64,000 nucleotides of DNA from a virus. Position 1 is the stretch's first letter. Each line of letters starts with the position of its first letter. The position numbers and the translations under genes were made by a program. Shown here piece after piece: positions 41,807-62,644 of the stretch. The DNA is taken from the IMG/VR virus record IMGVR_UViG_3300032245_001520, positions 1 through 64,000 of that record. The stretch is one strand, 5' to 3'. The notes beneath the pieces were generated by a model. The model had not been told where the DNA came from and did not search any database. It saw nothing but the letters and a program-made list of their open reading frames with translations.

Positions 41807-41962
41807 TCAGAACCTTCGACGACAGGAGGAGCACCCTCGCGTCGCTGCCTGCTGCCCATGCCCCTTGTACTGGTGAATCTGCCGAAGGATTCTCGCTGCC
41901 AGTGCGTGATTATTTGTAGAAACTGCGTGTTGGTACTGTTTCCATAACTCTTGAATACCCAC
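41807..41962 (-). CDS. Small protein with SCxxCR end, GTG start
   Basis: A 51-residue protein. It starts with GTG at 41960-41962, overlapping the TAG of the preceding gene (TAGTG). It is helical (VGIQELWKQYQHAVSTNNHA; ILRQIHQYKGHGQ) and ends with GCSSCRRRF, a possible metal or redox Cys pair. An upstream ATG would place 41 codons inside the neighbour's frame, so GTG is preferred. Small proteins of this shape accompany cyanophage structural genes as I remember them; no function known. Confidence 0.6.
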   Translation of the reverse strand: MGIQELWKQYQHAVSTNNHALAARILRQIHQYKGHGQQAATRGCSSCRRRF

Positions 41963-43185: not shown

Positions 43186-43186
43186 T

Positions 43187-43549
43187 TCAACCCACGAATT
43201 GCGTTGTGGAACCGTCGGTATTGGTAAAGGTGATAACCTGCACTCGAGGTTGTGGATCCGCAACCGGCGCAGGGACCGCAGGTTTCCACTCGATGCCCAC
43301 CCAAACCTTCAACATCTGCTCCTCCATATCGAACCATAACTCTCCCAATGTTGGACTCGCCACCGAATCTTCGGGAAGAGAGACATGCGCCGGACCGGAC
43401 TTGACCAGGTTACCCGTGTGATCCTTGAAAAACAACCCTGGCGTCGAAGCATGATAGTTAACGACGATCTCGCCTGTCGACAGATTGCTCGGAGAGGGGC
43501 GACGATGGGCGACGTTTGACCGTTTAAGACGAAGAGTGGGGGTCGCCAT
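43187..43549 (-). CDS. Stand-alone KRS/GEL adaptor protein
   Basis: A 120-residue protein with only the adaptor module: LKRSNVAHRRPSPSNLSTGE, GLFFKDHTGNLVKSGPAHV, TLGELWFDMEEQMLKVWVG. It ends in a short beta-like tail (VQVITFTNTDGSTTQFVG). Like the gene at 25341 it lacks a shaft. The first gene after a terminator and a GGGTAAAACA variant. Confidence 0.82.
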   Translation of the reverse strand: MATPTLRLKRSNVAHRRPSPSNLSTGEIVVNYHASTPGLFFKDHTGNLVKSGPAHVSLPEDSVASPTLGELWFDMEEQMLKVWVGIEWKPAVPAPVADPQPRVQVITFTNTDGSTTQFVG

Positions 43550-43581
43550 ATCTACGGTAGTGGTTCAGGGTGACTTGAAAG

Positions 43582-43591
43582 TGTTTTACCC
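43582..43591 (-). promoter_or_regulatory. GGGTAAAACA variant element
   Basis: One-base variant, 32 bases before ATG 43549 and four bases after a strong terminator hairpin. This is good evidence that the element starts a new transcript. Confidence 0.68.
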
Positions 43592-43594
43592 TGC

Positions 43595-43629
43595 ATACGG
43601 GAAAAGGGACCCCGAAAGGTCCCCCGTAT
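43595..43629 (-). terminator. Rho-independent terminator after the 348-residue fibre
   Basis: In minus orientation: ATACGG outer stem, GGGACC-TTTCGG-GGTCCC inner hairpin, followed by TTTT. The outer arms (43595-43600 with 43624-43629) also pair. It lies 16 bases after the stop codon of the gene at 43645 and directly before a GGGTAAAACA element. Confidence 0.8.
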
Positions 43630-43644
43630 CGCCTGTATCAGAGA

Positions 43645-44691
43645 TCAGAACGTTCCAAAATCCGCCGATGTGGTCACCAGCACGCCATCAACGATGTCAA
43701 GACCATCGCCGATGGTGATCTCGCCGAAGTTTCCAGCGACTTCAGCACCGAGGATGCTCTTCTGGGTTGCCTGTTGGATCTTGGCATAGGTGACGCCATT
43801 GTCAGCGATGCTGATTTCGCGGTTGGCACTGATGTCGCCACCACCTTGCAGACCACCGCTGGTGGAGATGGTGGTTGTCTTGACGGCATACAGGACATCC
43901 GTGATTGCCTGGGTGACGGAACCGGGGGTTCCCAGCATCAGCCATTGGCCCTGTGCCGAGGCGATCAGAGAGACAGCGACGTGCTCAGTGATCGAACCGG
44001 AGAGGTTCAGAATGGCGTAGTTTGGGTCGCTCTGCAGCAGACCATAGGCATCAGCGATGACAACGACGTCGCCTGCCTCGGGAACGGTACTGTAGCCAGC
44101 ACCTTCGGAGAAAGCAGCGACGTTGGCGAAGCCCCGAACGTTGGCCAGGTTGGTGGGAACGTTGGCCCAAACAGGCGCACCTTCGACTAGTTTGAGAAAC
44201 TGGCCATCAGTGCCAGCGGGCAGGGCATCTTGCTTGGTCGCAACACTCTGAGCCAGGGCATCTAGTGCTTCCTGAACTGTGGTTGCAGACAGCTCATAGG
44301 TGTCGACGTAGGAAACCTGAGAGGCAGCCTGGTCGTCAGCACTCTGGTCTACCCAGACGGTCGCGGTGCCATTCCAGCTGAGGACTTGGCCAGCGGTGCC
44401 AGCAGCGGCAGGTTTGTCGATTTTGTCGGAGAGACCAGCGAGCGCATCGGAGGCGTCGCTCTGAGCAGAGGCAATCGCGGCGTAGTCATTCAGACTGACA
44501 GCAAACCATCCCTCCAAAGGGGTGGAGGCAGCGGTTTGAGTGCCGTCAATAGCGGTATAGAAGGAGGTGCCATCGCCGACGAAGAGGATCTTGTCAGCGA
44601 AGTTGAAAGCGATTTCACCAGCTTTCAGCGACGCGGGAGCGTTGCCGGCAGTGGTACTGCGGAGAAACTGAAGATGCTTAGGCAGTGTCAT
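43645..44691 (-). CDS. Tail fibre with LRS/DK-type adaptor
   Basis: A 348-residue fibre. The N-terminus LRSTTAGNAPASLKAGEIAF then FADKILFVGDGTSFYTAI defines an adaptor shared with the 1946-residue fibre (FxADKIxxIGxGSxF). Shaft motifs include QEALDALAQSVATKQDALPA, DDQAASQVSYVDTYELS and the tail-fibre strand set AGDVVVIADAYGLLQS. The end carries KIQQATQKSILGAEVAG and ITIGDGLDIVDGVLVT. Single-gene unit closed by a clear terminator; its element is 51 bases upstream. Confidence 0.87.
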   Translation of the reverse strand: MTLPKHLQFLRSTTAGNAPASLKAGEIAFNFADKILFVGDGTSFYTAIDGTQTAASTPLEGWFAVSLNDYAAIASAQSDASDALAGLSDKIDKPAAAGTAGQVLSWNGTATVWVDQSADDQAASQVSYVDTYELSATTVQEALDALAQSVATKQDALPAGTDGQFLKLVEGAPVWANVPTNLANVRGFANVAAFSEGAGYSTVPEAGDVVVIADAYGLLQSDPNYAILNLSGSITEHVAVSLIASAQGQWLMLGTPGSVTQAITDVLYAVKTTTISTSGGLQGGGDISANREISIADNGVTYAKIQQATQKSILGAEVAGNFGEITIGDGLDIVDGVLVTTSADFGTF

Positions 44692-44742
44692 TTTTGAAAC
44701 TCAAGGGGATATCGTTGGTTCACTTGCGCAATCGCGCTAATC

Positions 44743-44752
44743 GGTTTTACCC
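44743..44752 (-). promoter_or_regulatory. GGGTAAAACC element for the 348-residue fibre
   Basis: Exact copy, one base after the stop codon of the 77-residue gene and 51 bases before ATG 44691. Confidence 0.7.
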
Positions 44753-44753
44753 G

Positions 44754-44987
44754 TCAGAAAACACCGTAGTCCAAGTTACCATCAAGACCGTCCCCTGCGA
44801 TCACAAGTTCGCCATCTCGCACAAAAATGTTCGCACCTGAGTTGAGCATACCCGCACTGGTCTGTATACCAAACTGCTCTGCCTCCAGGATGTCGGGAGT
44901 GCGAAAAGGATCGTTGGGGATCTCTTCCGTCGGGTCGAACGGTTCCGCAGCGTTTATGTTCTTGCGTTGCCTCGGAATCATGCCCAT
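44754..44987 (-). CDS. Small paralogous structural-type protein (1)
   Basis: A 77-residue protein. It shares with the gene at 45015 the layout NDPF...(L)...GIQTSAGMLNSGANIF-type strand...DGxLxGNLDYGVF. The C-terminal strand GxxGxxDxGV is common to both. A start two codons later (ATG 44979-44981) would fit the element spacing better. Likely a small fibre, decoration or capsid-associated protein; function unknown. Confidence 0.68.
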   Translation of the reverse strand: MGMIPRQRKNINAAEPFDPTEEIPNDPFRTPDILEAEQFGIQTSAGMLNSGANIFVRDGELVIAGDGLDGNLDYGVF

Positions 44988-45001
44988 GACGCTGTCTGGG
45001 G

Positions 45002-45011
45002 GATTTTACCC
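45002..45011 (-). promoter_or_regulatory. GGGTAAAATC variant element
   Basis: One-base variant, 14 bases before ATG 44987 or 20 before the alternative ATG 44981, and three bases after the preceding stop. Confidence 0.6.
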
Positions 45012-45014
45012 GGT

Positions 45015-45212
45015 TCACTCACCTAAGACACCGCAGTCTATGTCACCAACAAGGCCTCTAGCTTCGATTGCTGTTGTCTCGCCTTCGACAATCAGAGCGC
45101 CGCTGGGCATCATTTTGTCACCAGACTGGATCAAAAACTCTTCGTTGTCGTTGACAAAGGGTTCGTTGGGGACTGGCTGGTTAGGGTTGAAGGATGGGGT
45201 GTTGATGGCCAT
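45015..45212 (-). CDS. Small paralogous structural-type protein (2)
   Basis: A 65-residue protein paralogous to the one at 44754: NEPFVNDNEEFLIQSGDKMM, PSGALIVEGETTAIEA and LVGDIDCGVLGE align with its neighbour. It follows the first lectin-like fibre by two bases and is the last gene of the long unit that starts at 52421. Unknown function. Confidence 0.68.
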   Translation of the reverse strand: MAINTPSFNPNQPVPNEPFVNDNEEFLIQSGDKMMPSGALIVEGETTAIEARGLVGDIDCGVLGE

Positions 45213-45214
45213 GG

Positions 45215-46375
45215 TTAGATGCTCGCGTGAAGGGAGTTGGCAATGTTGAGCAAGGTTTGGTCGGGTGGGAGGTCGGCAGGATCACCGATCCACCAGGCAA
45301 CGGTGACGATGGGGGAAGACCAGTTATTTGCGGCGGAAGCAGGGGCGGCTCCGCCGATAAACTGAGACCCGTTGACGTACCCTGTGGAAGTGGTGACCAC
45401 CCCGTTCGTCAGAGTGGCTGCACCGTTGATTGAGGAACGTGTTGCTTGCCCCGGACCCCGGTCGATGAACAGGTAGGTGTTTTTACCGAGGGTTGTCGTG
45501 TTTATAGTCTGTTCCCCGAAGCTTCGGGTGATTCCGTTGTCGACGTAGAAGGTGGTGCCGTTTCGTGTGAATGACAGGTTCTTTCCGCTCACAAATGTGG
45601 CGTTACTTGCAAACTCGTACACCCTACCACTTGCAGGGGAGGTTGCTGCGTTGAACTGAAAGATGAACCAACAAGCAGTACCTGTTTGGGGGGAGCCAGT
45701 CTGAGAGGCAACGTTGGTGAACTTTCGGACGGCTTGATCTGTTCCCGACGTCGGCCCCATTAGCTGGCCACAGTAACGCAGGGTGGGTGCGGGGACGGTG
45801 CCTCCGATGATGTCACAAGTCGCCTGAACGCTAAGACCGCTCGCCTGGTCATACCAACGTTGTAGGCTCACGTAAGTAGACCCGGTTAGGGGTGCGTAGT
45901 TCGCCATTGTCCAGTTGTTCGCCGAAGCGTTGTCAGTGACGTTGCGGCATTGAAACCACGCAGGGGTTGTCCACCCGGATGTCATCTGCCCTAGCATCGG
46001 CGTGTAGGAGCTTGTCACCTGCTGCTTCATCGAGTAGATGTGAACCCCAGTCAGACTCGGCAGAAGGTCGAACGGCAGCGGCGGATTCATGTCGACGGCG
46101 TTAAACCATGAGTACCCGTAAGTGTTCAACTGTTGGAGATTGGTATCGTACCACATCTCGCCAGGGGAGTTTCCTGCAGATCCCGCCGGGGTGGAGTTTG
46201 GTACGGTGGTCCCGACCTCGACAGGGCCCACTTTGCTAATGTCGCCACTAGAGCTTTTGAAGAAAATGCCGCCGCTTGTGGGGTTGAAATTTAGTCCCAG
46301 CTCGCCGCTTAGCAGGTCTCCAGGTTGGGGGCGTTTGTTTGCGGTGCCTGAGCGCTTGAGCAGAAAAGTTGACAT
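45215..46375 (-). CDS. Lectin-like tail fibre, tandem paralogue 1
   Basis: A 386-residue fibre. KRS/GEL adaptor: LLKRSGTANKRPQPGDLLSG, GIFFKSSSGDISKVGP, NSPGEMWYDTNLQQLNTYG. Then PLPFDLLPSLTGVHIYSMKQ and a beta-sandwich with WYDQASGLSV, which resembles the W-Y-D-Q-S-G-N motif of LamG/ABFB-type concanavalin folds. Strands include CWFIFQFNA, KNTYLFIDRGPG and, at the end, VTVAWWIGDP. Such folds usually bind sugars. The first of seven paralogues in a row; they keep the adaptor and fold but differ strongly in surface segments. Confidence 0.87.
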   Translation of the reverse strand: MSTFLLKRSGTANKRPQPGDLLSGELGLNFNPTSGGIFFKSSSGDISKVGPVEVGTTVPNSTPAGSAGNSPGEMWYDTNLQQLNTYGYSWFNAVDMNPPLPFDLLPSLTGVHIYSMKQQVTSSYTPMLGQMTSGWTTPAWFQCRNVTDNASANNWTMANYAPLTGSTYVSLQRWYDQASGLSVQATCDIIGGTVPAPTLRYCGQLMGPTSGTDQAVRKFTNVASQTGSPQTGTACWFIFQFNAATSPASGRVYEFASNATFVSGKNLSFTRNGTTFYVDNGITRSFGEQTINTTTLGKNTYLFIDRGPGQATRSSINGAATLTNGVVTTSTGYVNGSQFIGGAAPASAANNWSSPIVTVAWWIGDPADLPPDQTLLNIANSLHASI

Positions 46376-46376
46376 G

Positions 46377-47543
46377 TCAGATGCTCACGTGAAGGGTGTC
46401 GGCGATTGCCTTGATTTGTGCGGCTGTTGGGCAGTTGACAGTGGTGCCGATCCAGTACGCACAGGTCACGATGCCGTTGTTCCACTCTCTGTTGGCCTGC
46501 CGTGTACTGCCAGCACCGCCGACCCCCAACCCCTGACTGCCCACGGTGTATACGCCGGTGAAAGACGTTCCCGTCTGGAGTGCTCCCCCATTGAGCGAGT
46601 ACGAGACGGCGGTGCCAGTGTCATGGACCATGATCGTGTTCTTTCCGCCCACAGCGCCGTTCAAAGCTAAATTCGTGAAAACATTTCCATAGGACCGGTC
46701 AAACCTGATATTCTGCGTTGTGCCAACCCGAAGAAGTGAGAAAGACCCAGTGCCGAAAGTTCCAGAAGATGAGGCGCCTTCGAACAACGGTGGATTGCCC
46801 ACCGGACTGCTCGGGTCCGCAGAGTTAAACTGAACGATGCACCAGAACGCAGCCCCAGTCTCGGTCGCTGAGACCAGGTTGGGCGCGTCGTAGAACGCTC
46901 GGGACAATGCATCGTTGGAAGGTTTGAACCCAATGAGTTGCCCTACTTGGCCAAGAGGGACAGCGCTGGAGTTCGCATAAATCTGCGCCCCACCCGTGCT
47001 GACGAGAGTGCGAGAAGCCACCTGGTCATACAGACGAAAGGCATCCACCCAAGAACCCGACTCCTGATAGTTTCTGAGCCAACTGTTCTGAATGTTGTTG
47101 ACGGAACTTGAAGGAATAGGATTAATGTTGCTGCTATCGATCTGCTGCTTGACGCCCATTGTGTATGGAGTGGCCGTGTCAGAGAACTGCGGCCCAACAA
47201 GCCACTTGACTCCGTAAACGTGAAGGGGGCGACCGGCTGTTGGCAGAGTCGAGAAGAAGTCCTGAGCGAAGGAGTTTGTCGTGGCAGCCCACCCTGTACC
47301 GTTGTACACTCTGAGAGTGTTCATCGTGGTGTCGAGCCACGTCTCTCCTCTACAGGCATCCGCAGGAGCCACGGCGGCGACCTGTGCAGGGCCAACTTTC
47401 CTCAGATTGCTGCTGGAGTCCCGGTAGAACAGACCCAAACTACTGTCGTTGTTGTTGAGGACGAGCTCCCCCGCATAAAGACCCCCTACGAAAGGTCTGG
47501 CGTTTGCTGTTGACGATCTTTTAATCAGGAAAGAGATGCTCAT
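46377..47543 (-). CDS. Lectin-like tail fibre, tandem paralogue 2
   Basis: A 388-residue paralogue. The ATG at 47541-47543 overlaps the TAA of the next gene upstream (TAATG). Adaptor FLIKRSSTANARPFVGGLYA, GLFYRDSSSNLRKVGP. Fold markers: RLYDQVASRTLVST, FWCIVQFNSADPS, KNTIMVHDTGTAVSYSLNGG, VTCAYWIGTTVNCP. The closest C-terminal match is paralogue 5 (CTAAYWVGTTANCP). Confidence 0.86.
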   Translation of the reverse strand: MSISFLIKRSSTANARPFVGGLYAGELVLNNNDSSLGLFYRDSSSNLRKVGPAQVAAVAPADACRGETWLDTTMNTLRVYNGTGWAATTNSFAQDFFSTLPTAGRPLHVYGVKWLVGPQFSDTATPYTMGVKQQIDSSNINPIPSSSVNNIQNSWLRNYQESGSWVDAFRLYDQVASRTLVSTGGAQIYANSSAVPLGQVGQLIGFKPSNDALSRAFYDAPNLVSATETGAAFWCIVQFNSADPSSPVGNPPLFEGASSSGTFGTGSFSLLRVGTTQNIRFDRSYGNVFTNLALNGAVGGKNTIMVHDTGTAVSYSLNGGALQTGTSFTGVYTVGSQGLGVGGAGSTRQANREWNNGIVTCAYWIGTTVNCPTAAQIKAIADTLHVSI

Positions 47544-48802
47544 TATGTGCTCACCGTTGCGTGAAGGAGTGTTGCCGCGTTTCGCACTGCGGTTTGTGAC
47601 GCGATGTTGGCAGGGGTGCCGACCCAAGCAGCTAGTGCGGTGTACGCGTTGCTGTTCCCGAAGTTGCTAGAAGCATTGGCAACGACCGATTGTCCCCCTA
47701 GCCAGGCGTAATTGAGACTGTAAGCTCCGCCTTGACTAACGGTTGTCACAGTTGGCGTGGTCCAAGCACCGCCGTTGTACGAGTACTGAATAAGTCCTCC
47801 GGCAGTTCCGCTGTCCCAGAACGCGAAAGTCGAGACCTGACCTGTCATGTTAGGCACCGCACAGTCGTACTGGGTTCGAGTATTTCCAGCCCCGATAAGA
47901 CGGGACAGACGGACAATCGTGGTGGAGGGTACCCAGGCACCTATGCCACCTCCTGTCCATCCGCCGTTAGTCCCCCCGAACTCAAAAACTTGGGGGCCCG
48001 ACGCGGCACCCGCATTGTACACAAACTGCACGATCCACCACCCGGCGTTGCCAGTCGTGTAACCAGTTGCAGTCCGAGCGTCACGGAACTTGCGGTTAGA
48101 GTTCGAGGTGACGGAGATGAGACCGTACATGTTACCGACTTTCACGGGAGGGAGGGGGAACCCTTTATCTGCAAACTCCGGATTCCCGTTGGCAATGGCC
48201 CCTCCAGACAGAGTCCTACCAGACACCTGGTCGATAATCATCGGAACTTGAATGATGCCGTCAGAGTCGTACAGGTAGGTGCCCATTGTCTTTTGATTGG
48301 ACTCCACCCAGTTCAGTGCCCTGACGGGTTCAGCGCTGTTGCCAATGCTACTAGCAGCAGTCAGAAAATTCCACCCGTTGCCGCTGGCGCGCCGATCGCT
48401 GTAGAGGTCGATGAGACCCCAGACATGCGAGGGGGGTGCGGCTGCCCCACCTGCTGTGGTCAGCCCGTCAAAGGGAAGAACTGTTCTACTTGCGGCTTGA
48501 CGAAGCCAAGCGCTGCCGTCATACGCATACAGAGAAGGAAAGGGCAACCCGGATCCCAACGGGTTCGGCTGCAACCAAGTCTCTCCTAGGCTATTACCGG
48601 AGGATCCAGGGGGGTTGAGGTTAGGCTGGTCTATGGATGTCTGAGTTGGCCCTATTTTTCCTACAGATCCGGAACTTGTAAGAGTGTAGATTCCCCCGTT
48701 GAGTCTGTTCTCGTTCAGGGCGAGTTCTCCTGACTGTAGTTGGGCAGGACTTGGCCTCTTTTCTATAGTGCTGCTGCGCTTGAGTAGGATTGAGACTGCC
48801 AT
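47543..48802 (-). CDS. Lectin-like tail fibre, tandem paralogue 3
   Basis: A 419-residue paralogue. Adaptor LLKRSSTIEKRPSPAQLQSG, GIYTLTSSGSVGKIGP (the usual FFKD replaced by YTLT), SLGETWLQPNPLG. Fold markers: IIDQVSGRTLSGG, WWIVQFVYNAG, VSTFAFWDSGTAGGLIQYSYN, LAAWVGTPANIA. The C-terminus is LLHATVST. It shows longer loops than paralogues 1 and 2. Confidence 0.86.
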   Translation of the reverse strand: MAVSILLKRSSTIEKRPSPAQLQSGELALNENRLNGGIYTLTSSGSVGKIGPTQTSIDQPNLNPPGSSGNSLGETWLQPNPLGSGLPFPSLYAYDGSAWLRQAASRTVLPFDGLTTAGGAAAPPSHVWGLIDLYSDRRASGNGWNFLTAASSIGNSAEPVRALNWVESNQKTMGTYLYDSDGIIQVPMIIDQVSGRTLSGGAIANGNPEFADKGFPLPPVKVGNMYGLISVTSNSNRKFRDARTATGYTTGNAGWWIVQFVYNAGAASGPQVFEFGGTNGGWTGGGIGAWVPSTTIVRLSRLIGAGNTRTQYDCAVPNMTGQVSTFAFWDSGTAGGLIQYSYNGGAWTTPTVTTVSQGGAYSLNYAWLGGQSVVANASSNFGNSNAYTALAAWVGTPANIASQTAVRNAATLLHATVST

Positions 48803-48804
48803 AG

Positions 48805-49983
48805 TTACGACACCCAGAGCTGGTCAGAAATTTGCTTGAGGAGTGCGTTCGTTGGCATATCGACCGGGGCTCCGACCCACCAGGCCACAGTGGCGATGGG
48901 AGCGTTCCACTGCTGGGGGACAAAACTGGTGCCGGTCACAATGGGACCGCCGACGGCGAAGCAGCCGTTCTGGTATCCAGTGTTGAAAGAGAGAGGTCCA
49001 TTCGTAAGTGCGCCCCCGTTCACCGAGTACTGGATGTTGGTTCCGGGCCCACGGTCGCAGTAGAGGATGACGTTCTTGTTCCCAGTGGAGTATGCGATTT
49101 GCAGGTCGACGCTGGTTCCGTTGCATCTCGCGAACACGGTGTTGTTTGCACCGTTGCGAATGATCTGTAAGCTCTTCCCTCCCACGAAGTTGTTGATCGC
49201 AGGCCCGAACTCGCAGATATACCCGTTGTTCGGCACTCTACCCGCTTCGCCGCTGAACACGGCCATTACCCAGCAGGCGTTGCCGTCCTGCCTGGTGACT
49301 GTCGTGCCGTCGAGCATCACACGACCCTGATAGTCAGTCAGCGCAGTCGGAGCGTAGGCACCACCGCAGTCGCCACCGTACAAAGAGTAGAGTACAGGAG
49401 GCCCGTCTGTCTCAGTTGTGTCTCCCTGGAGATGGCGAGTGCCGACCTGGTCGTACCAGCGAGTCATCGTGGCGTACCAACTGCCGGTGTTGGCACTGTT
49501 GTTGCTGGTCCAGATGAGGGCATTCGTCCAAGGTTTACTTGTCCACAGAGGTACCGGAATCAGATTCCTGTCACCGAGTTGCGTATCGAAACTGAACGCG
49601 AGAGGGCTGCTAGTGTTAGTAAGTTGTTTCTGCGTCGAGTAAATGTGGACTCCGGTCGTGCTCGGCAGCAGGTCGAACGGCAGCGCTGGGTTCATGGGCA
49701 CGCCGACCCACCCATTGGCTCCAGTGAAAGTCTTGAGCGAGTTCTGTGTCGTGTCGAGCCACATCTCGCCTAGGGAGTTGCCAGCGAAGCCAGCAGGTGT
49801 GGCATTCGGCGCAGTCGTGCCAACGTGCACCGGGCCAGCTTTCGACAGGGCACCACCAGCGTCCTTGAAGAAGATGCCGGGGGATGCTGTGTTGGTGTTG
49901 AGCGCTAGTTCGCCGTCAGCGAGGAGGGCGGGATCGGGTCGTTTGTTGGCGACTGCGCTGCGTTTCAGGAAAAAGTTTGCCAT
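48805..49983 (-). CDS. Lectin-like tail fibre, tandem paralogue 4
   Basis: A 392-residue paralogue with ATG 49981-49983 (an in-frame ATG three codons earlier overlaps the neighbour). Adaptor FLKRSAVANKRPDPALLADG, GIFFKDAGGALSKAGP. PLPFDLLPS-type linker LPFDLLPSTTGVHIYSTQKQ is nearly identical to paralogue 1. Fold markers: RWYDQVGTRHLQGD, CWVMAVFSGEAG, KNVILYCDRGPGTNIQYSVN, TVAWWVGAPVDMP. Paralogues 1 and 4 are the closest pair in the array. Confidence 0.86.
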   Translation of the reverse strand: MANFFLKRSAVANKRPDPALLADGELALNTNTASPGIFFKDAGGALSKAGPVHVGTTAPNATPAGFAGNSLGEMWLDTTQNSLKTFTGANGWVGVPMNPALPFDLLPSTTGVHIYSTQKQLTNTSSPLAFSFDTQLGDRNLIPVPLWTSKPWTNALIWTSNNSANTGSWYATMTRWYDQVGTRHLQGDTTETDGPPVLYSLYGGDCGGAYAPTALTDYQGRVMLDGTTVTRQDGNACWVMAVFSGEAGRVPNNGYICEFGPAINNFVGGKSLQIIRNGANNTVFARCNGTSVDLQIAYSTGNKNVILYCDRGPGTNIQYSVNGGALTNGPLSFNTGYQNGCFAVGGPIVTGTSFVPQQWNAPIATVAWWVGAPVDMPTNALLKQISDQLWVS

Positions 49984-49988
49984 AGTTA

Positions 49989-51176
49989 TCAAATCAGGGC
50001 ATGCATCTGAGACGCCAAAGATTGCATAGTCGCTGCCGTCGGACAGTTGGCTGTGGTACCAACCCAGTAAGCGGCTGTGCAGAGAGCACAGTTCAAGTTT
50101 CGCGAGTTAGGCTGATAATCAGCGCCACCAATGTTCACGCCACCGTTGCCAATGATGTAATCTTGGTTTCTTGAGGTGTTGCCAGCCACAAGTGCGGAAC
50201 CGTTGATGCTCATTTGAACGTTACCCGTGCCGTTGTCGTAGTAGAGAAGTGTGTTTTTGGCGTACTGCGTCGTGTCACAAACGATGTTGTTGTTGAACAT
50301 GTACGGGTCGGTGCCATCCACTCGCCTGGCGATAAGCAGGTTGCTTCCTGTTCCCCTCTGAATGGTGACAGACCCGTTTCCGTAAGTGTTTTCTGAGGAC
50401 CACAGCTCCATGACGATTTGGCCGTTGTTGGTGTTGGGGGCAGAAAGATTGAACTGAAGGATGCACCAGAACGCTGGCCCCTGCTCAGTCGCCTGAGGAA
50501 TGGTCGACTGGAGATCTTTCCAGTACCGAGTGGCATTGTCCGCATTGGAGGGCACTGGACCCCACAGGTTTCCAACGAGCGGTGTCCCCGTGATTCCGGC
50601 AGCGGGCCAGTACCAGGGAACGTTGCCGACCAGAGTGCGGTTGCCGGTTTGATCGAAAAATCGTTGACACGTGGAGTCGCTTTCGCCATTGACGATGGTG
50701 GCGGGCCAACTGTTCTGAATGGTGTTGTTAGTCGACGCTGGAACGTAAACCTGCTGGTTCGGCGCGTTCGCCGTCTGGATGCAGCATGTGAACCCCGACC
50801 CGACCTTCGCTGTGGACGAAATCGAAACCCACTGCCGGGTGCTCCAGACATGAAGAGGAGTCTGCACCCCTGAGAGAGACCCGAGCACTCTGCTGCTGGT
50901 GCCAGGTGCGGCGGCACGGTACCACGAGGAAGCACCACGAACGTTCAGCCAGGGACCAGTCGTGTCGAGCCAGGTGGAACCGACTGTCGGGTTGACCGGG
51001 GCAGCCACAGACTGCGTGGCCGGACCCACTTTGACTAAGGACCCAGCGGAGTCCTTCAGGAAGATTCCGGGGGAGGATGCATTGTTATTGATATTGAGCT
51101 CGCCTTCGGCCAGATTGCCGACTGTCGGCTGGGCGTTGGCCGTTGAACTTCTTCGAAACAAGAATGAGACTGCCAT
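49989..51176 (-). CDS. Lectin-like tail fibre, tandem paralogue 5
   Basis: A 395-residue paralogue. Adaptor FLFRRSSTANAQPTVGNLAE, GIFLKDSAGSLVKVGP, with a shorter linker (NPTVGSTWLDTTGPWL). Fold markers: RFFDQTGNRTLVGN, FWCILQFNLSAPN, KNTLLYYDNGTGNVQMSING, CTAAYWVGTTANCP. The ending is ASQMHALI. Adaptor and C-terminus pair it with paralogue 2. Confidence 0.86.
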   Translation of the reverse strand: MAVSFLFRRSSTANAQPTVGNLAEGELNINNNASSPGIFLKDSAGSLVKVGPATQSVAAPVNPTVGSTWLDTTGPWLNVRGASSWYRAAAPGTSSRVLGSLSGVQTPLHVWSTRQWVSISSTAKVGSGFTCCIQTANAPNQQVYVPASTNNTIQNSWPATIVNGESDSTCQRFFDQTGNRTLVGNVPWYWPAAGITGTPLVGNLWGPVPSNADNATRYWKDLQSTIPQATEQGPAFWCILQFNLSAPNTNNGQIVMELWSSENTYGNGSVTIQRGTGSNLLIARRVDGTDPYMFNNNIVCDTTQYAKNTLLYYDNGTGNVQMSINGSALVAGNTSRNQDYIIGNGGVNIGGADYQPNSRNLNCALCTAAYWVGTTANCPTAATMQSLASQMHALI

Positions 51177-51179
51177 GAT

Positions 51180-52421
51180 TTACACCGATGCGTGAAGAGA
51201 AACGGCAGCGGCCAACAGCGATGCCTGTGTGGGCATACCTGCGTTATTGCCAACGTAGTAAACGCAAGCGGAGATGGGGTTGGCGTTGCCGAAGTTGTTG
51301 GCAGCGATTGCGTCTCCGGAGTTCCTTCTTCCTAAGAACATTCTGGAGTCAGTGTAGTTCGAGTTGGAGGAAACACCGGACTCCAGGAAGGCTGTCCACG
51401 CACCACCGTTGAAGGAGTAACGAAGGACTGTGCCGTCGTCGTAGACTGCGAAGGTGTTCTTGTTGTTGTCGCCGGTGTTGAAGGCCAGGGCAGCGGTGGT
51501 GCGAATGCTCGTGGCTCCGGAGATGCCCCTGTAATAGGTGATGTTACCGGCCCCCCTGTTAACGTCGATAGCGACGGAGGCATTCCCCCACGCGCCGTCC
51601 GTTTGTGTGAAGGTCATGAAACGACGACCATTCTCAGTGGCGCCGTTCAGACCAAACTGGCAAGTTATCCAGAAGTTCGTTCCAGTGGTTCCCCCACCGA
51701 CAGCGTCTATCCACCCGCGAGAGATGTTGTCAGTGTAGCAGCAAGGGGCGAAGAGGGAACCGACTCTCCACCAGTTGCCGCTGCCTACCACGTTGACAGT
51801 GGCGCCGCCGAATCCAAAGATGGCGCCACTGTTGAGTGCTGAGATAAGAGTCCGCTGCCGAGTCACCTGGTCGATGAGTTGGTAGCAGTGGCAGTAGTCC
51901 TCGACTGCGTTAAGGTTGTAGGTCGTCAGGTTGCAAGCAGCTGCGGATCCACCGCCACCACCGGCAAAGTTGCAACCGGGGTTGGTGGTGGCGTTCGACG
52001 TCATGAACGTGAACGGTAGCTGACCGACGACGGGGTCAGTGTAAAGGTTGTTCATCCCCCAGGCGTGCTTAGGACTCACCTTGGTTCCCGATGCATTGAC
52101 AAGGTTATCGAACGGGAGAGTCTGGTTCAAGTCGGGAAATGTCGACCAAGCTCCGGTACTTACATTGAGCTTAGGCGCAGAGCCGGTCTGCAACCAAAAC
52201 TCTCCGACCGTTGTTCCAGAGGATCCAACCGGATTTCCGTTGGGCGTGTTTGATGATACTTGAGCAGGTCCCAACTTCGAGATGGTGGTCCCGTTACTGT
52301 TCTTCAGGAACAGGCCGGGTGCCACTGCTGCGGTGTTAAGGGCAAGCTCTCCGAAGTCTATTTGAGTCGTGTCGGGACGTTTGTTCGCGACTGCCGACCG
52401 TTTTAACAAAAAATTGGCCAT
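51180..52421 (-). CDS. Lectin-like tail fibre, tandem paralogue 6
   Basis: A 413-residue paralogue and the first gene of the unit. Adaptor FLLKRSAVANKRPDTTQIDF, GLFLKNSNGTTISKLGP, TVGEFWLQTGSAPKLNVS. It is unusually rich in Cys and Gly in the middle (NPGCNFAGGGGGSAAACNL; DYCHCYQLIDQ). Fold markers: LIDQVTRQRTLISA, FWITCQFGLNGATEN, KNTFAVYDDGTVLRYSFNGG, ISACVYYVGNNAGMP. Element 48 bases upstream. Confidence 0.86.
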   Translation of the reverse strand: MANFLLKRSAVANKRPDTTQIDFGELALNTAAVAPGLFLKNSNGTTISKLGPAQVSSNTPNGNPVGSSGTTVGEFWLQTGSAPKLNVSTGAWSTFPDLNQTLPFDNLVNASGTKVSPKHAWGMNNLYTDPVVGQLPFTFMTSNATTNPGCNFAGGGGGSAAACNLTTYNLNAVEDYCHCYQLIDQVTRQRTLISALNSGAIFGFGGATVNVVGSGNWWRVGSLFAPCCYTDNISRGWIDAVGGGTTGTNFWITCQFGLNGATENGRRFMTFTQTDGAWGNASVAIDVNRGAGNITYYRGISGATSIRTTAALAFNTGDNNKNTFAVYDDGTVLRYSFNGGAWTAFLESGVSSNSNYTDSRMFLGRRNSGDAIAANNFGNANPISACVYYVGNNAGMPTQASLLAAAVSLHASV

Positions 52422-52469
52422 GAGGATAAGGGTCCCCCCAAATAATCAGCCGAAGCTGTTTCTCTCAAG

Positions 52470-52479
52470 GGTTTTACCC
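52470..52479 (-). promoter_or_regulatory. GGGTAAAACC element heading the lectin-fibre unit
   Basis: Exact copy, six bases after the stop codon of paralogue 7 and 48 bases before ATG 52421. It would control six paralogues and the 65-residue gene (no other copy until 45011). Confidence 0.73.
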
Positions 52480-52485
52480 TCGCCT

Positions 52486-53661
52486 TCAGGTCTGAGCGTC
52501 AAGTTGCTCCGCCATCGCAACGAGTGCTGCCCAAGTCGGAGAGTTGAACCGGCTGCCAACCCAGTAGGCAACGGTGATAATCGGGTTGTTCACTCCCCAA
52601 TTCTTGGCGTTGTCCACCGTTGCTGGACCGCCGATAGTGATGTTGCCAATGCTGTAGTCGCCAGCGAGGTTGACGAAACCGCTGTCGGTCACACCGTTTA
52701 TCCACGCTTTGACAGGGTCGGTGCCGTTCCCAGGGTCGTGGACGAGCAGCGTGTTCTTGGATCCCAAACCGGGGTTCACCGTAAGAGCGTCGGTGTAAGG
52801 GAGTGTAGAGAGTGGCCCATTTCGGTAAAACTTGACGGTGTTCGTGGAACCCTCTCTCTTGATGTGCACTGACCCGTTCGTCGGTGTGAAACCCGGACCT
52901 GTGAACTCCAGAAGGTACCCGTCCGGAACGACATTCCAAGCACCAAATTGAACAACGCACCAAAATGCTCGACCGATTCCAATCACGTCCGGCGTCCGGG
53001 CAGTCCTAAAGGGAGAGTTCCGAAGCGTAGAGAACTGGGGTCCATAGCTGATACCCACTGAAGCGGGTACTTGGCCAGCCACAAAGACACCGCCCTCGCC
53101 GACCAGGGTCCGCAATTCCTCGGTCTGCGAAAACCACTTCGTCATAGAGGTGGAGGTGGAACCTGCATCGATGGCCAGCAGGTAGTTGTTTGTTTTGTTG
53201 GGGTCGGTGAAGGGTGGCAGAGTCTGCAGGGAATCAGGGTACTGCGACGCCACGAAAGCGCCAACATTGTAAGACGAGGGGTTGGTGTTCACCTGCCTCA
53301 TCGACCACGAGCAGATTGGTTGGCAAGCACCCTGCAGAGGGAAACTAACAGTGGAGGGTGTAAACTGAGACTGTGCCCATCCGCCGCCAGTGTAAATCTT
53401 GAAAGTGTTGTCTCGTGTGTCGTACCACATTTCACCGAGGGAGTTCCCCGAGAAACCCCCTAGTGGCGGAGTCTGGTTTGGTGCAGTGCTGCTGACTTGA
53501 ACCGGACCAACTTTGACCAGACCGGTGCCAGAGGCAGTCTTGAAGAACACCCCTGGATACAAATCGGCATCGTTGACTGCTACCTCACCGAAGGCAAGGG
53601 CGCCGGGTTGTGGTCGTTTATGCTCTGTTGACGACCTTTTCAGCGTGATTGTCAAGGCCAT
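52486..53661 (-). CDS. Lectin-like tail fibre, tandem paralogue 7
   Basis: A 391-residue paralogue in a different unit, eight bases after the 576-residue fibre. Adaptor ITLKRSSTEHKRPQPGALAF, GVFFKTASGTGLVKVGP, NSLGEMWYDTRDNTFKIYTG. Fold markers: KWFSQTEELRTLVGEG (the DQ of the others has become SQ), FWCVVQFGAWN, KNTLLVHDPGNGTDPVKAWI, ITVAYWVGSRFNSP. It is separated from the other six by a transcription-unit boundary. Confidence 0.86.
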   Translation of the reverse strand: MALTITLKRSSTEHKRPQPGALAFGEVAVNDADLYPGVFFKTASGTGLVKVGPVQVSSTAPNQTPPLGGFSGNSLGEMWYDTRDNTFKIYTGGGWAQSQFTPSTVSFPLQGACQPICSWSMRQVNTNPSSYNVGAFVASQYPDSLQTLPPFTDPNKTNNYLLAIDAGSTSTSMTKWFSQTEELRTLVGEGGVFVAGQVPASVGISYGPQFSTLRNSPFRTARTPDVIGIGRAFWCVVQFGAWNVVPDGYLLEFTGPGFTPTNGSVHIKREGSTNTVKFYRNGPLSTLPYTDALTVNPGLGSKNTLLVHDPGNGTDPVKAWINGVTDSGFVNLAGDYSIGNITIGGPATVDNAKNWGVNNPIITVAYWVGSRFNSPTWAALVAMAEQLDAQT

Positions 53662-53669
53662 GGTCGTCC

Positions 53670-55400
53670 TCAGAAGCTGCCGCCGTCAACAGTTCCCGTG
53701 TACCTGAGTTGGTTCCCAGCAGGGTTGACTTCGAGCATTTGACCGGCAGTTCCGATGGGGAGAACACCTGGTCCTGGCCCAGTGGTGAGACCCTGGAGGA
53801 TAGTGCCTGGCTGGGCATACTCACTCTGACCCACCTCATTGAGAACGGTGCTCAAGAAGTCGTACGTAATCGCAGTGGTCGGACCAACGGGGTCAAGGAC
53901 GTCGTCCGCGATAAACACCGGACCCCTTTGGGTGGCGCTGGTTGGAATGCCGAGAAGAGTTTGGGGGGAGACGACTAAGGAAGCCTCTGACCCCGCATTG
54001 ACTTGCTCCTGTGTGGCGTATCGGGCGAGTCCGGACAGACTGGTGCTTGCGATTCTGCCGTTTAACGTGGACGGCGTAACAACCTTGAAGTCATTCTCAC
54101 CAATGTTGACCTCCAACTGAGTCGCCAACAGAGCCAGACCCGGACTGAACTCGCTTGCCTCCAGAGAGGACAGACCGAGAGGCGTCACAGCGATAGTATC
54201 GTCCGTGCCCGCCTGAGTCTCCCCAGGTTCTGCGAGGCGCACGATGCCCTTGACAGTGGTGCTGGCATCGGGTACCGAGGATGAACCGATGGGAATGTAC
54301 TCCCAAGCAGTGCCACTGCACACATACCAGTCGCCAGGGTTGACCGTGTCAGGTGTGCCACCGGGGGGAGTGTAGACTCCAGCAGTGTCGACCACCACGA
54401 AGTAGCTGGTAAGACCAGCAGCGGCAGCAGGCAGGTCAGCACCGACAGTGAAACCTTTGGCAGCACCTGCGGTGGTCACCGTGCTCACTTTGCCGGTGTT
54501 ACCGTTCAGTGTCCCTGCGAGTGTGAGTCCGCCACTGATAGACAGGTTGTTGATTTGAGTTTGGAGAGCAGCGCCAGCACTCGCAGTCAGAGCAATGGTG
54601 TCATCATTGAGAGCCAGAGAGTCTGTCAGTGCGACAACACCAGGAGTGCCGATGGCGCCATCTGCGACACTGATGATTGAGTTGCTATCAACGTTAATGT
54701 TCTGGCCGACCTGAAGTATGCCTGCCTGGCCAACAGAACCGGAGTTGACGCTGACGATACCAGCGGTGGCCGTCAGACCCGTGCCAGGTTGCATGACACC
54801 AACCGTGGTCGCAGAAGCGATGGCGACGCCGATGATGGCGTTGGTCGTGCCGATGACGCTGATGGATCCGGATCCCGCGATCGTCTCCACTCCACCCGGA
54901 CTGGGGAGAACCCACCGGACGCCAGTGGCAGAGGCAGGGTCAGCAGTCAGTACTGTTCCTGGCCCACCGATGGCAACGTTGACTGGAACGCCAGCGCCGG
55001 AAGCAGCCAGGATGGCGCCTTTCGCCGGATAGGCACCCGTGAGGACGGGCGGAGTGGCGTAAAGAGTGGGAGGAGCGTTGAGGCGACCGAAGGCATCGAA
55101 GGAGACACGACGAACATAGTCGTAGCTAGCAGCGGCGATACCAACGGTTGCGAGACCGATCGTGCCTGTGTCGATGATGCCAGTCGCGGGGTTGGTGACA
55201 ATACCGACGCCTGCCGTGACCTCGGAGACACCGCCACCACCACCACCACCACCAGTGACGTTCAGGTAGTTACCAGAAACTGCGAGACCTGACCCAACAA
55301 TCAACAGACCTGTGGGCGTGTTGAGACCGAATGTTGGCGGCCAGTAGAATGGCGAGTTGGGGATGGGGATTAGGAAACTTGGGGGATTAGGCAGCGACAT
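53670..55400 (-). CDS. Tail fibre, 576 residues
   Basis: Start at ATG 55398-55400; the frame is open upstream from a GTG at 55481, but that part contains a hairpin and looks like leader. N-terminus: MSLPNPPSFLIPIPNSPFYW, TGLLIVGSGLAVSGNYLNV, then a Gly tract. Shaft repeats: VMQPGTGLTATAGIVSVNSG, AGILQVGQNINVDSNSIISV, GVVALTDSLALNDDTIALTA, TVKGIVRLAEPGETQAG (Phage_fibre_2-like). The end (GTAGQMLEVNPAGNQLRYTG) is a strand pair also used inside the 1946-residue fibre. Element about 95 bases upstream, with a long structured leader. Confidence 0.87.
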   Translation of the reverse strand: MSLPNPPSFLIPIPNSPFYWPPTFGLNTPTGLLIVGSGLAVSGNYLNVTGGGGGGGGVSEVTAGVGIVTNPATGIIDTGTIGLATVGIAAASYDYVRRVSFDAFGRLNAPPTLYATPPVLTGAYPAKGAILAASGAGVPVNVAIGGPGTVLTADPASATGVRWVLPSPGGVETIAGSGSISVIGTTNAIIGVAIASATTVGVMQPGTGLTATAGIVSVNSGSVGQAGILQVGQNINVDSNSIISVADGAIGTPGVVALTDSLALNDDTIALTASAGAALQTQINNLSISGGLTLAGTLNGNTGKVSTVTTAGAAKGFTVGADLPAAAAGLTSYFVVVDTAGVYTPPGGTPDTVNPGDWYVCSGTAWEYIPIGSSSVPDASTTVKGIVRLAEPGETQAGTDDTIAVTPLGLSSLEASEFSPGLALLATQLEVNIGENDFKVVTPSTLNGRIASTSLSGLARYATQEQVNAGSEASLVVSPQTLLGIPTSATQRGPVFIADDVLDPVGPTTAITYDFLSTVLNEVGQSEYAQPGTILQGLTTGPGPGVLPIGTAGQMLEVNPAGNQLRYTGTVDGGSF

Positions 55401-55459
55401 GAGGTCTCCGAAGGCAGGGATATCTGTGGCGCAAAAGCGAGTTGTGAAAAAGTTGAGGA

Positions 55460-55477
55460 CCCCTGTAGAAACAGGGG
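55460..55477 (-). other. Leader hairpin before the 576-residue fibre
   Basis: CCCCTGT-TTCT-ACAGGGG, seven-base stem and four-base loop, in the leader between the GGGTAAAACC element and the ATG. Eight bases downstream is a TTTTT run. It could be a weak attenuator, an RNA stability structure or part of an N-terminal extension if GTG 55481 is used. Confidence 0.5.
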
Positions 55478-55495
55478 CCACGTTTATCGTTGTGT

Positions 55496-55505
55496 GGTTT
55501 TACCC
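55496..55505 (-). promoter_or_regulatory. GGGTAAAACC element overlapping a stop codon
   Basis: Exact copy for the 576-residue fibre unit. GGG TAA within it is the final Gly codon and stop of the second homing endonuclease. Confidence 0.7.
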
Positions 55506-56213
55506 TACCCTGACTCGATTTTCTTTGCCGTGGGGAAGGCCACGTGATTTTTGTTTGAGGGTGAGACTCCCGGCGCTGAGTGCACCCAATTCAGGGTGAA
55601 GAGGGTCTTCCCACTTTTGGGCAGCCACTTGTTTTCCTCTTTCTCGGCGTTCTTCTGTTGGGATGCCGCAGATGCCAACTCCGAGCTCTTTAGATCGGGC
55701 CCCACCTTTCGCCGCTCCCTTTAGACCGCACCTGCGTTGATAATCGGGGTCTTCGGCTATTCTTTTAGCGATAGCAGCGCGACCCCCCCTAGCAAGTCCT
55801 TCCTTGGTTCTTTTTGCCGCGTTCTTTTTGTTTCGTTCGCTCAAATAAACGGGGTCGTCTGAGTACATGCCCTTTTTCTCAGCCATAAGTTTAGCAGTGC
55901 TCCTCCTTCCATTCTCCCTGGCAACCTTTAATGAGACGCCCGTTCCAGAACACCCCTCATTGAGACAACAAGGGTTGTTAAGATCGGGACGAATTAAACG
56001 GTCTTCTACCAAGTTAGCCTGTTTCCATCCTTCATCAGAGTAAGGGAAACACTCTAGCACTTGCTTTTCAGCGTCGTAAAAATCCCAGGCCCACTTGTTT
56101 GTGCTAGGGGATCCCCAGTACTTTTCGTCGAAGACCCTTTCCTTGTGGACACCCCAGTAGAAGTATGAGGTGCCCGGAAAGGTGATTTTGTAAGTGTAGA
56201 TGCGCGGTTTCAC
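55500..56213 (-). CDS. GIY-YIG-like homing endonuclease
   Basis: A 237-residue protein from GTG 56211-56213 (an ATG is not available in the N-terminal region). N-terminus IYTYKITFPGTSYFYWGVHK with EKYWGSPSTNKWAWDF is a diverged GIY-YIG core: YxYK-I-T...YYxGxxK-like. A conserved Glu follows in ANLVEDRLIRPDLNNPCCLN. The rest is Arg/Lys-rich with repeated short helices (AKRTKEGLARGGRAAIAKRI; RRCGLKGAAKGGARSKELGV). AT content is higher than in the neighbouring fibres. Like the first homing endonuclease it ends in Gly-stop inside a GGGTAAAACC element, and it has a GGGTAAAACA variant 20 bases upstream. Confidence 0.85.
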   Translation of the reverse strand: MKPRIYTYKITFPGTSYFYWGVHKERVFDEKYWGSPSTNKWAWDFYDAEKQVLECFPYSDEGWKQANLVEDRLIRPDLNNPCCLNEGCSGTGVSLKVARENGRRSTAKLMAEKKGMYSDDPVYLSERNKKNAAKRTKEGLARGGRAAIAKRIAEDPDYQRRCGLKGAAKGGARSKELGVGICGIPTEERRERGKQVAAQKWEDPLHPELGALSAGSLTLKQKSRGLPHGKENRVRVG

Positions 56214-56233
56214 AGTGTTGGTGCAACTGCAGT

Positions 56234-56243
56234 TGTTTTACCC
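56234..56243 (-). promoter_or_regulatory. GGGTAAAACA variant element before homing endonuclease 2
   Basis: One-base variant, 20 bases before GTG 56213 and 16 bases after the 1946-residue gene. Together with the exact copy at 55496 it brackets the homing endonuclease, as if the element had been duplicated around the insertion. Confidence 0.62.
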
Positions 56244-56259
56244 TTCAGTAGGGGCCAGC

Positions 56260-59200
56260 CTAAAATCCACCGGCGTCGAAGCTGACAACCGTTTTTAGCT
56301 GACCCGTGCTCAGGTCAACCACAACTCCCAACTGATTCGCAGCAGTCACAGTCGAGGTTGTCTGCAGCGGAGTGGAGAACAGGTTTCCTGTCAGAGTTCC
56401 ACCAGACTTGGGCAGCGCCGCAGCAGCCAGATCGTAAGCAACCTTGACCGAGTTGGGTGTCGCAGCCGTTGTGGCAGAGGTTGAGGCAACGGAGTTGGTG
56501 AGTTGCAGCACACCGACTTCGGAGGTTGATCCCGTCGAGACACTGACGATAACGTTCGCCGGGTCTGTGGAGTTCACAGTGACAGGAGCGACGCCAGCCA
56601 CTGTGTCAACGGTTCCCCCACCGCCACCGCCACCTGCGGTCCAAGTGAGCGGTGAGCCAGGACCGTTGGAGGTTAGGACCTGACCGGCAGCACCGACGCC
56701 TGAGGGCAGAGTGATCGGACCGGCAAGAGACAGTGAGCTGACTGTGCTCAGCAGGTCGATAGAACCGAAGCGAGCCGGTGTATCAATCAGAGCGCCTTCC
56801 AGCAGCGAGTTAGCCTTGTCGAACGTGGAGTCGTCAAGAATGAAACTACCATTGAGGTTGAGGCGAGCAGCAGCGCCGGAGGGAGTGTAGAACTGGCTAT
56901 TGCGCAGGAACGCAGTGGTTCCGAGAGCACTCGTAACGGCAGCGTTAGTCTCGCCAGTGGCAAACACGTTGCTCGTGTCGATAACAGTTGTCCCCAGGGT
57001 GAGAGTGACAGCACCGACGACAGGGCAACCGCTGGCAGAGAAGACACCAGCAGCGTTGTTGATAGTAACAGGACCGATGCGACTATCGTCAACGTTGAAA
57101 TAACCTGCACCCGTGATGTTCAGGGAGGACAGATTGGCCTCGACATCGAAGAACTGAGAGTAGCCATTGCCTGACTTGGTAAAGACGACGCCAGTATTGA
57201 GTGTGCACTCGTCAAGGTAAACTCCGCCAGCACCGCTGTGAGTGATGTTGCCAAAGAACAGAACACCCGAGACGCGAACGCTGGAGGAGGCACCCGTGAA
57301 GGCGACTGTGCCGTTGATGGTGGCACCGGAGCGGTTGGCACCCACGATGTCCAGGTTGAGGTCCGTAGCACCGATGGTCAGGTTCTCGGTGTAGGTGCCC
57401 TGGTGAAGCACAATGCGCTCGCCAGTGTTGCCAGCGGCGGTGAGAGCACGACCGATGGTCAGGAACGGTTGCTCTTCCGAACCAGTGCCGTTGGTGTCGT
57501 CACCGCCCACCGGGTCAACGTTCCACTCTTTGCTGTACTTGTGGAAGTTGGCACCGGAAGTGCGAGTGTAGCTAATGGGGTCGGTGCCGATAGTGTTGAC
57601 GGTGGTGTACTGGGCGTAGGAAGTGCCACCATTGGTCGTTCCGTTGGAGACGAAGTACAGTGCGCCGTTGGGCAACTCGGCCGTAGAGTCAGCGTTGCTC
57701 GCACGGGTCAGCAGGGTTGTAGTCGTCCAGACGTAGACGCCGTTCTGGAAAGCGGAGGCCTGGTTCTTAACTAGAACTCGGTCGGTAGCACCAGTGCGAG
57801 CAACACCGTCGATGGTTGCCAGAGCAGTCCCAAGTGTCAGTGTGGCGCCGACGCCAGCAGTGCCGTTGTTGTAAGTGACGACCCCTGGAATGGCGACTGT
57901 GGTGGCGACTCGGACAGCGTCCTGAGGGCGAAGACCGCCAGAGATCTGGTCGACGTAGAACTTCGAGGTCGGCGACTCGGGGGACGAGGGGATAGGGTTG
58001 CTGCCGTTGAGGAAGATCTCGCCGGAGAAGGTGCCACCCGAGATGGGCATCGCAGCAGCAGCCAGGTCGTAGGCAGCCTTGACAGCGGTGTCGGTGGCGG
58101 CGACTGTGGAAGTCGCAGTGTTGGTGGCGTCGGAGAGTTGAACCGACCCTTTGACCAGCAGGGTACCGTCCTTGGTGTTGACGACGTTGTATCCACTAGG
58201 TTCACCTTCCAGCCAGTAGTAGGAGATGCCAGTGTCGAGAGCGACGTAAAGCGTCTCAGGAACACCTAGCGCAGGGAAGGAACCGAAGTTGGCAAACTGG
58301 GCCACCCCACCAGCGGGGGCGTCACCCGGAGTGATCCACTCGAGAGCGGAACCAGTGGAACTGAGGACTTGACCCGCAGCACCGACGGTGCCCAGTCCGT
58401 CCAGAATGCCCGCACCCGGTTTGATATTCATCGCGCTGTCGCCCGTCAGCCAGGAAGCTGTGGAGTTAGGGGCGATGACGAGTTGACAGTTGGCAGTGGC
58501 GTCTGTAACAGCAGCACCGAAACCTACGGCCACGTTGTAGTTGCCGCTGGTGGCGTTGCCAGAGCAGGCACCCAGAGCGACGTTGCCGATGCCAGTGGTC
58601 AGAGCGTTGTTGGCGCTGAAACCGACGCCGGTATTAGGGTTCTCGCCATCCTCTGTGCTAGCGAAGACGACCCCCAGAGCAGTCGGAGTGGCAGTGTTGA
58701 CGCCAACAATAGGATCAGCGGGGTTCTCGTTGTCAATCGTGATGGGCAGAGTGCCGGAAACGGACTGAACTCCGTCAGCAGCGTTCGTGATCCACTCAAT
58801 GGCAGTGCCAGTGGAACTCAGGACTTGACCCGCAGTACCGAGGTTGCCGGCTGTGTCGCGAAGACCAGCACCGGGTTGGATGTGCTTGCTAGAGTCGCCC
58901 GTCAACCAGTTCTGACCGACGGCAAACGACAGTGCCATTTGGCAGTCGCCGTCTCCGACAGTGGCCTCGTATCCGAGCAGCAAGTTGCGGGAGCCGGTCT
59001 GGAGATCTTCACCAGCGTGAGCGCCAATAGCTGTGTTTCCACTGCCATTCACATCAAGAAGAGCATTGCCACCGATGGCAACGTTATCGCTTGACGCACC
59101 CGCCGCGAAAGCCATGGCGAAACTGCCGATGGCCAGGTTAGAGTTGCCAGTGGTGAGGGAGCAAGCAGTGCCATCACCGATGGCGACGTTCCTGCACCCC

Positions 59201-62100: not shown

Positions 62101-62110
62101 GGTGAGAACT

Positions 62111-62584: not shown

Positions 62585-62607
62585 TCGCCCTGGAGACTTC
62601 TTTGAGA

Positions 62608-62617
62608 GGTTTTACCC
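62608..62617 (-). promoter_or_regulatory. GGGTAAAACC element for the giant-fibre unit
   Basis: Exact copy (AAAGGGTAAAACCTCTCAAAG), 23 bases before ATG 62584 and 27 bases after the connector-like gene. Confidence 0.73.
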
Positions 62618-62644
62618 TTTCTTGTTGCGACCCTGCGGTAAACC

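Follow-up and report, generated by a model that had tools for sequence, protein, structure and literature searches.

A 64,000-nucleotide stretch of viral DNA (the window; positions 1 to 64,000 of IMG/VR record IMGVR_UViG_3300032245_001520, an 82,344-base virus record that may be a fragment) carries a row of seven paralogous genes whose products are proposed to be receptor-binding tips of a tailed phage, each composed of an N-terminal connector and a lectin-like domain. The genes are present as seven intact open reading frames at positions 45215-53661 of the minus strand, contain no internal stops, and are named F1 to F7 in transcription order (Table 1). Their lengths are counted from ATG, which for F4 and F6 lies 9 and 84 nt inside the listed TTG frames. 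The intact frames and the full-length homology bear out the original prediction, made from the sequence by a model, of seven tandem paralogous genes of 386-419 residues at this place. The proposal that starts overlap stops holds at one of the six junctions (F5/F6, −1 nt) and fails at the other five: from F1 to F7, the gaps are +64, +3, +5, +2, −1, and +1 nt, such that F2 to F7 follow one another within 5 nt.

Full-length identity between members of the set ranges from 26 to 43%. In a seven-sequence blastp search, the C-terminal domains align in all 21 pairs, 17 of which fall below 1e-9 (weakest direction 1.2e-4), and a hidden Markov model (HMM) of this domain, run on the six frames of the entire record, matches exactly F1 to F7. 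Among the motifs thought to be shared, the C-terminal [AV][YWA][YW][VI]G strand is present in all seven proteins, but DQ is found in only six (F1 has SQ) and RTL in only five. Paralogues 1 and 4 (43%) and 2 and 5 (37-38%) had been named as the closest pairs; with the genes numbered along the plus strand, both pairs are right, and the pair 3 and 6 (35%) belongs alongside them.

The connector, or adaptor, comprises the N-terminal ~95 residues (about 90-106 aa) and is directly followed by the lectin-like domain. It is 48.8% identical to a ‘tail fiber protein’ of phage S-CBS4 and 45.6% identical to a ‘putative endosialidase’ of S-CBWM1. F2, F4, F5, and F7 match PHROG 356 (minor tail protein) through the connector; for F3, the match is to a fibre PHROG, at 0.002. 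In a scan with the whole-protein alignment, 31 loci were recovered from 44 stretches, and every match fell within residues 1-95. Each of the seven genes keeps the connector, as expected, but the connector is not exclusive to them: its HMM also matches positions 21793-25302, 25341-25802, 25873-30825, and 43187-43549, for a total of 11 copies in the record. Connector matches were counted in 27 records of the terminase set (S-CBWM1 and 26 of the 55 recovered through the terminase): 18 contain one to three, some of which are two pieces of one protein, and nine contain none. Three records retrieved by way of the connector contain five to six matches. The match at 43187-43549 corresponds to a 120-aa protein that is almost entirely connector and could serve as a tipless plug or cap.

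The C-terminal domain spans ~290-310 residues. Structure models of two divergent members, F4 and F5 (mean pLDDT of 58 each; pTM of 0.56 and 0.64), both match concanavalin A (ConA)-like/LamG domains, with best Foldseek E values of 1.6e-5 and 4.8e-6 and VIA Z scores of 13.8 and 13.0. The original prediction called for such models and held that unrelated folds in the C-terminal halves would speak against it; in the two proteins modelled, both C-terminal domains give ConA-like/LamG matches, at low confidence, and the idea of lectin-like tips on a common connector is supported at the level of predicted structure. The C-terminal domain is therefore provisionally assigned as a concanavalin-A/LamG jelly roll, an assignment that extends to F1 to F3, F6, and F7 by homology only. 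The top fold matches include animal lectin-like domains, carbohydrate-binding modules, toxin binding domains, glycoside hydrolase family 54 (GH54), and a cyanophage tailspike. Because this fold is common, it says little about the ligand. The tailspike is that of the cyanopodophage Pan3 (PDB ID: 9vyh, chain p), with which residues 98-392 of the F4 model align over 212 residues (Z of 13.1, rmsd of 3.6, 9% identity); no sequence similarity to it was detected, and its function is taken from the entry title alone. Mean pair identity is 0.33 in the predicted strands of the C-terminal domain, 0.21 in the loops, and 0.19 in the region of F4 residues 117-222, where the model is least sure. Conservation is thus higher in the predicted strands than in the remaining domain, and only one of 293 circular shifts is equally good.

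The GH54 match raises the alternative of an enzymatic role, in which the domains would be jelly rolls that degrade glycans, GH54-like or otherwise, and the array would encode depolymerising tailspikes and not pure lectins. The GH54 arabinofuranosidase 1wd3 aligns over 227 residues (Z of 13.6, rmsd of 3.9), the longest type of alignment in the table of matches, and sialidase chains match as well, albeit, judged by residue ranges, through their lectin-like domains. Matches to non-catalytic lectins and carbohydrate-binding modules are equally good, however. In addition, the likeness to 1wd3 is at the fold level only, and the Glu of an ..EF.. stretch is missing in F2. An enzymatic array is thus considered unlikely, if the most serious of the alternatives.

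The order of the genes carries information about their origin. The closest partners are F2 and F5, F3 and F6, and F4 and F7, a period of three: mean identity is 38.2% at a lag of three genes and 30.2, 30.3, and 30.4% at lags of one, two, and four. Only 16 of the 5040 possible orders are as periodic as that observed for the full-length proteins (16 for the adaptor alone and 32 for the lectin alone). In the tree, F2+F5 and F4+F7 have support values of 100/99 and 97/97, F3+F6 falls narrowly under the double threshold at 94/95, and F1 has no supported placement. Approximately unbiased (AU) tests were applied to three neighbour pairs, F3+F4, F5+F6, and F6+F7. For the full proteins, all three are rejected as sisters (p values of 0.0006, 0.0011, and 0.0020, respectively), and the lectins alone reject them likewise (0.005, 0.008, and 0.017). 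At the DNA level, the two longest repeats, one of 81 nt and one of 61 nt, return after 3605 and 3624 nt, respectively, a distance of three genes; several shorter repeats recur at other spacings. The 120-aa adaptor-only protein lacks 7 columns at the site of the connector gap common to F3 and F6. The simplest history, and the one favoured from these comparisons, is that tandem duplication of a block of three genes, of types A, B, and C, gave rise to most of the set. Between paralogues, synonymous sites are almost saturated with differences (pS of 0.70-0.76 in the six pairs computed), and the duplication is therefore old. For F1, the connector is closest to that of F4 (55%), the lectin scores best with F6 and F3, and neither placement is rejected.

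A history in which the genes were copied one at a time, with the period-3 order arising by chance, must be weighed against block duplication. There are only seven genes, and the period had been noted ahead of any test of it; p is ~0.013 after correction for four lags. The support for F3+F6 just misses the threshold, and with the adaptor alone the AU tests reject none of the tested clades, neighbour pairs included. Block duplication is nevertheless favoured because the pairs recur with period three and the tested neighbour pairs are rejected as sisters; the rarity of equally periodic orders and the spacing of the longest repeats also speak against single-gene copying, which is regarded as improbable. 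The original prediction of duplication followed by divergence and mixing, with a comparison of adaptor and lectin phylogenies as its check, is accordingly refined in its first part to a three-gene block; the mixing finds no backing, as none of the branches of the adaptor tree is supported and the tests on the adaptor give no rejections. A further thought is that the A-B-C order is functional, each block forming one hetero-oligomeric tip from its three lectin paralogues, or an obligatory trio. Block duplication would then have added a whole second tip, not single specificities. Gene order is the sole support for such a mixed tip so far, and the idea is at present a speculative one.

The array lies within a larger fibre island, whose boundaries were compared across 56 loci (55 found through the terminase, together with S-CBWM1). 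Both flanking genes are present in 34 of these, the downstream gene alone in 12, and the upstream gene alone or neither in 10. In 32 of the 34 loci with both, the 359-aa and 407-aa genes are 3-58 nt apart; because there are many near-duplicates among these contigs, the 32 empty junctions are not independent cases. In the two exceptions, L075 and L080, the flanks are separated by 2212 and 1355 nt with one frame in between. Fibre-like frames, recognised by eye, lie upstream of the 407-aa gene in L041, L042, L052, L071, and L076 (with the connector confirmed in L041 only), and L043 has an endonuclease-like frame, likewise judged by eye, at this position. As the junction is empty in most relatives and otherwise filled elsewhere, it is a site for fibre cassettes, and the array is one filling of it.

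Table 1 Positions of F1 to F7 and of other features of the fibre island.
Feature	Position	Strand	Description
F1	52486..53661	-	391 aa; residues 1 to about 102 connector, from there to 391 lectin-like domain (aa 103-391); assigned to no type A/B/C
F2	51180..52421	-	413 aa; type A, sister of F5; 64 nt after F1; best ribosome-site score among the seven
F3	49989..51176	-	395 aa; type B, pairs with F6; 9-column connector gap in common with F6
F4	48805..49983	-	392 aa from ATG; type C, sister of F7; structure modelled
F5	47543..48802	-	419 aa; type A, sister of F2; structure modelled
F6	46377..47543	-	388 aa from ATG (listed TTG frame 416 aa); type B; ATG overlaps F5 stop by 1 nt
F7	45215..46375	-	386 aa; type C, sister of F4; 91% identical homologue in L035
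Fibre island	43186..62644		19,459 nt; between 359-aa gene 62645-63724 and 407-aa gene 41962-43185
603-aa fibre protein	53670..55481	-	Immediately before F1; tail fiber protein proximal subunit as top PHROG match
1946-aa long fibre-like protein	56260..62100	-	Same island
120-aa gene, almost connector only	43187..43549	-	Downstream of the array within the island; 97.5% conserved in L035

Other genes of the island are also fibre-like, and the 603-aa fibre protein is a possible partner of the connectors. A homing-endonuclease-like gene at 55500-56213 (PHROG 314, E value of 6.6e-7) lies inside the island and might help it to move. A P(I/V)PNxPF start, noted by eye, is common to 65-, 77-, and 68-aa proteins (45015-45212, 44754-44987, and L071:920-1123) and also occurs early in the 603-aa fibre protein; the small proteins would make up a family around the array. 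Two neighbouring fibre genes have Mtd_N-like starts (44541-44691 and 61951-62100), as do the junction frames of L071, L075, and L076. When the connector was compared with these starts in the neighbouring genes, profile against profile, 31 columns aligned with a probability of 55% and an E value of 1.2e-4, a suggestive result only, by which the two are perhaps distantly related.

A match to the C-domain alignment was found in one of 41 records chosen from 86 loci (L004-L089). This record, L035, has a homologue of F7 whose frame is open to its stop; as the contig starts inside this gene, the rest of its array is unseen. Between F7 and the homologue, dN/dS is 0.156, compared with 0.05-0.15 for four neighbouring genes, and F7 is under purifying selection. 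Interrupted frames in related isolates had been put forward as evidence that would count against the original prediction; none is present in L035, the sole relative found, which holds one gene. When viral contigs were scanned with alignments of the paired C domains, type C matched 20 stretches, type B 26, and type A 76, none of them a relative, and a scan with the gene upstream of F1 gave none among 14. With F7 and its homologue as the query, only L035 was recovered (one of nine in viral contigs, none of 175 in genome contigs). No match to the F7 C domain was found in a phage collection up to an E value of 1, and the C-domain HMM, run on the fetched loci, matches only the record's own loci and L035. 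These scans rely on short peptide patterns and work best for close relatives, and the comparison of copy number reaches one end of one relative. Two further features of L035 were observed. Its dS relative to the window is uneven around 43190-46084, with values of 0.09 for the 348-aa gene and 0.14 for the 120-aa gene against 0.40-0.60 for F7, the 407-aa gene, and the terminase, as if a stretch had been recently exchanged. A 237-aa frame (L035:4338-5051) lies between its 407-aa gene and terminase; the window has no such gene at 41730-41805, and the best relative of this frame on the window's side is at 68584-69303 of the record (36%). By terminase, the nearest isolate is S-CBWM1, a phage of Synechococcus (55% identity), and for this reason the host is likely cyanobacterial.

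The tight spacing of F2 to F7 indicates that these genes are probably made together. Six promoter-like sites (shuffled mean of 3.5, sd of 2.0) and nine terminator-like sites (shuffled mean of 11.8, sd of 3.6) were uninformative. For the ribosome-site energy, only F2 passes the 5% point of random 20-mers, with −9.3 against −8.6; the weak sites before F3 to F7 are not special because most genes scored in the window are likewise weak. The original prediction held that the array is not a phase-variable cassette, and this position is upheld. Switching, by phase variation or a diversity-generating retroelement, with alternative tips used one at a time, is very improbable: variable tips on a constant connector are the product of such systems, and a 19-nt inverted repeat (95%) lies inside F5 (47665-47683 and 48338-48356, with 654 nt between the arms), but this repeat may be due to chance, no inverted repeat of at least 20 nt was found in 44700-54000, each gene has its own start, and the record, possibly a fragment, gives no match to the RVT_1, Phage_integrase, or Resolvase families, which speaks against switching. 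Pfam searches likewise gave no match to the Mtd_N domain in F1 to F7; the 348-aa neighbour has a sub-threshold match (20.6 bits, relative to a cut-off of 26.3).

The best explanation of the array is that F1 to F7 are probably co-expressed receptor-binding tips of a tailed phage that lie in a host-range cassette. The identification as receptor-binding tips is based on the connector type, the fibre neighbours, the jelly-roll fold, and the loop variation. The gene structure, the homology, the period-3 order, the island junction, and the purifying selection on F7 are established here; we infer the fold itself, attachment, sugar binding, and a role in host range, as well as co-expression, which the tight spacing suggests. 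The connector would be a plug like that which starts cyanophage fibre proteins and T4-like gp37. The jelly-roll loops, which carry the variation, would contact host-surface sugars, and genes made together would give virions with several tip specificities simultaneously. The array itself would have grown largely by duplication of the A-B-C block within the fibre island, whose junction most relatives have empty. Several results weigh against this explanation. The likeness of the connector to T4-like proteins annotated as the distal subunit (gp37) is weak (35% over 91 residues, E value of 5e-3), and neither F1 nor F6 matches a PHROG of a tail family. No Pfam-A family was found for F1 to F7 at an E value of 1, nor for eight members at an E value of 10, and a sequence search of solved structures with the C domains gave chance-level matches only (E value of 0.52 and worse), leaving no sequence match to a solved lectin. 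The structure models were built from eight sequences, their mean pLDDT is low, and in F4 residues 117-222 are mostly below 50. Finally, the assignment of the host is drawn from a single isolate.

Parts of this arrangement have counterparts in known systems. The fibre proteins of S-CBS4 and S-CBWM1 and, weakly, T4-like gp37 resemble F1 to F7 in their type of N-terminal connector. Unlike a gp37-type distal subunit, the seven proteins lack a long fibre shaft, place the lectin-like domain straight after the connector, and are encoded as seven tandem repeats. In the branched tailspike complexes of Ackermannviridae, several receptor-binding tail spike proteins are reported to be encoded together and to widen recognition (PMC11414711). 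Both systems thus have several receptor-binding proteins, putative in the present case, whereas F1 to F7 are short lectin-like paralogues with one connector type. Metaviromic islands of marine phages are described as variable stretches with tail fibre and lectin-like host-recognition genes (PMC3909814). The island of F1 to F7 likewise holds predicted genes for host recognition, and its contents differ from one close relative to another; metaviromic islands are defined by read recruitment and the present island by a filled versus an empty junction, and the words ‘paralog’, ‘duplicat’, and ‘tandem’ do not occur in the main text of that report. In a limited literature collection, searched by title and the beginning of the abstract, no description of a tandem lectin-fibre array in a cyanophage was found. 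Phages with several receptor-binding proteins and tail-fibre islands are already known, and the seven connector-plus-lectin paralogues are a variant of these. Having apparently been duplicated as a block, they constitute a natural series for studying the divergence of sugar-binding tips. The filled and empty junctions define a site at which host-recognition genes are gained and lost in a clade of probable cyanophages, and a variable tail-fibre cassette at this site may help the virus to recognise varied hosts.

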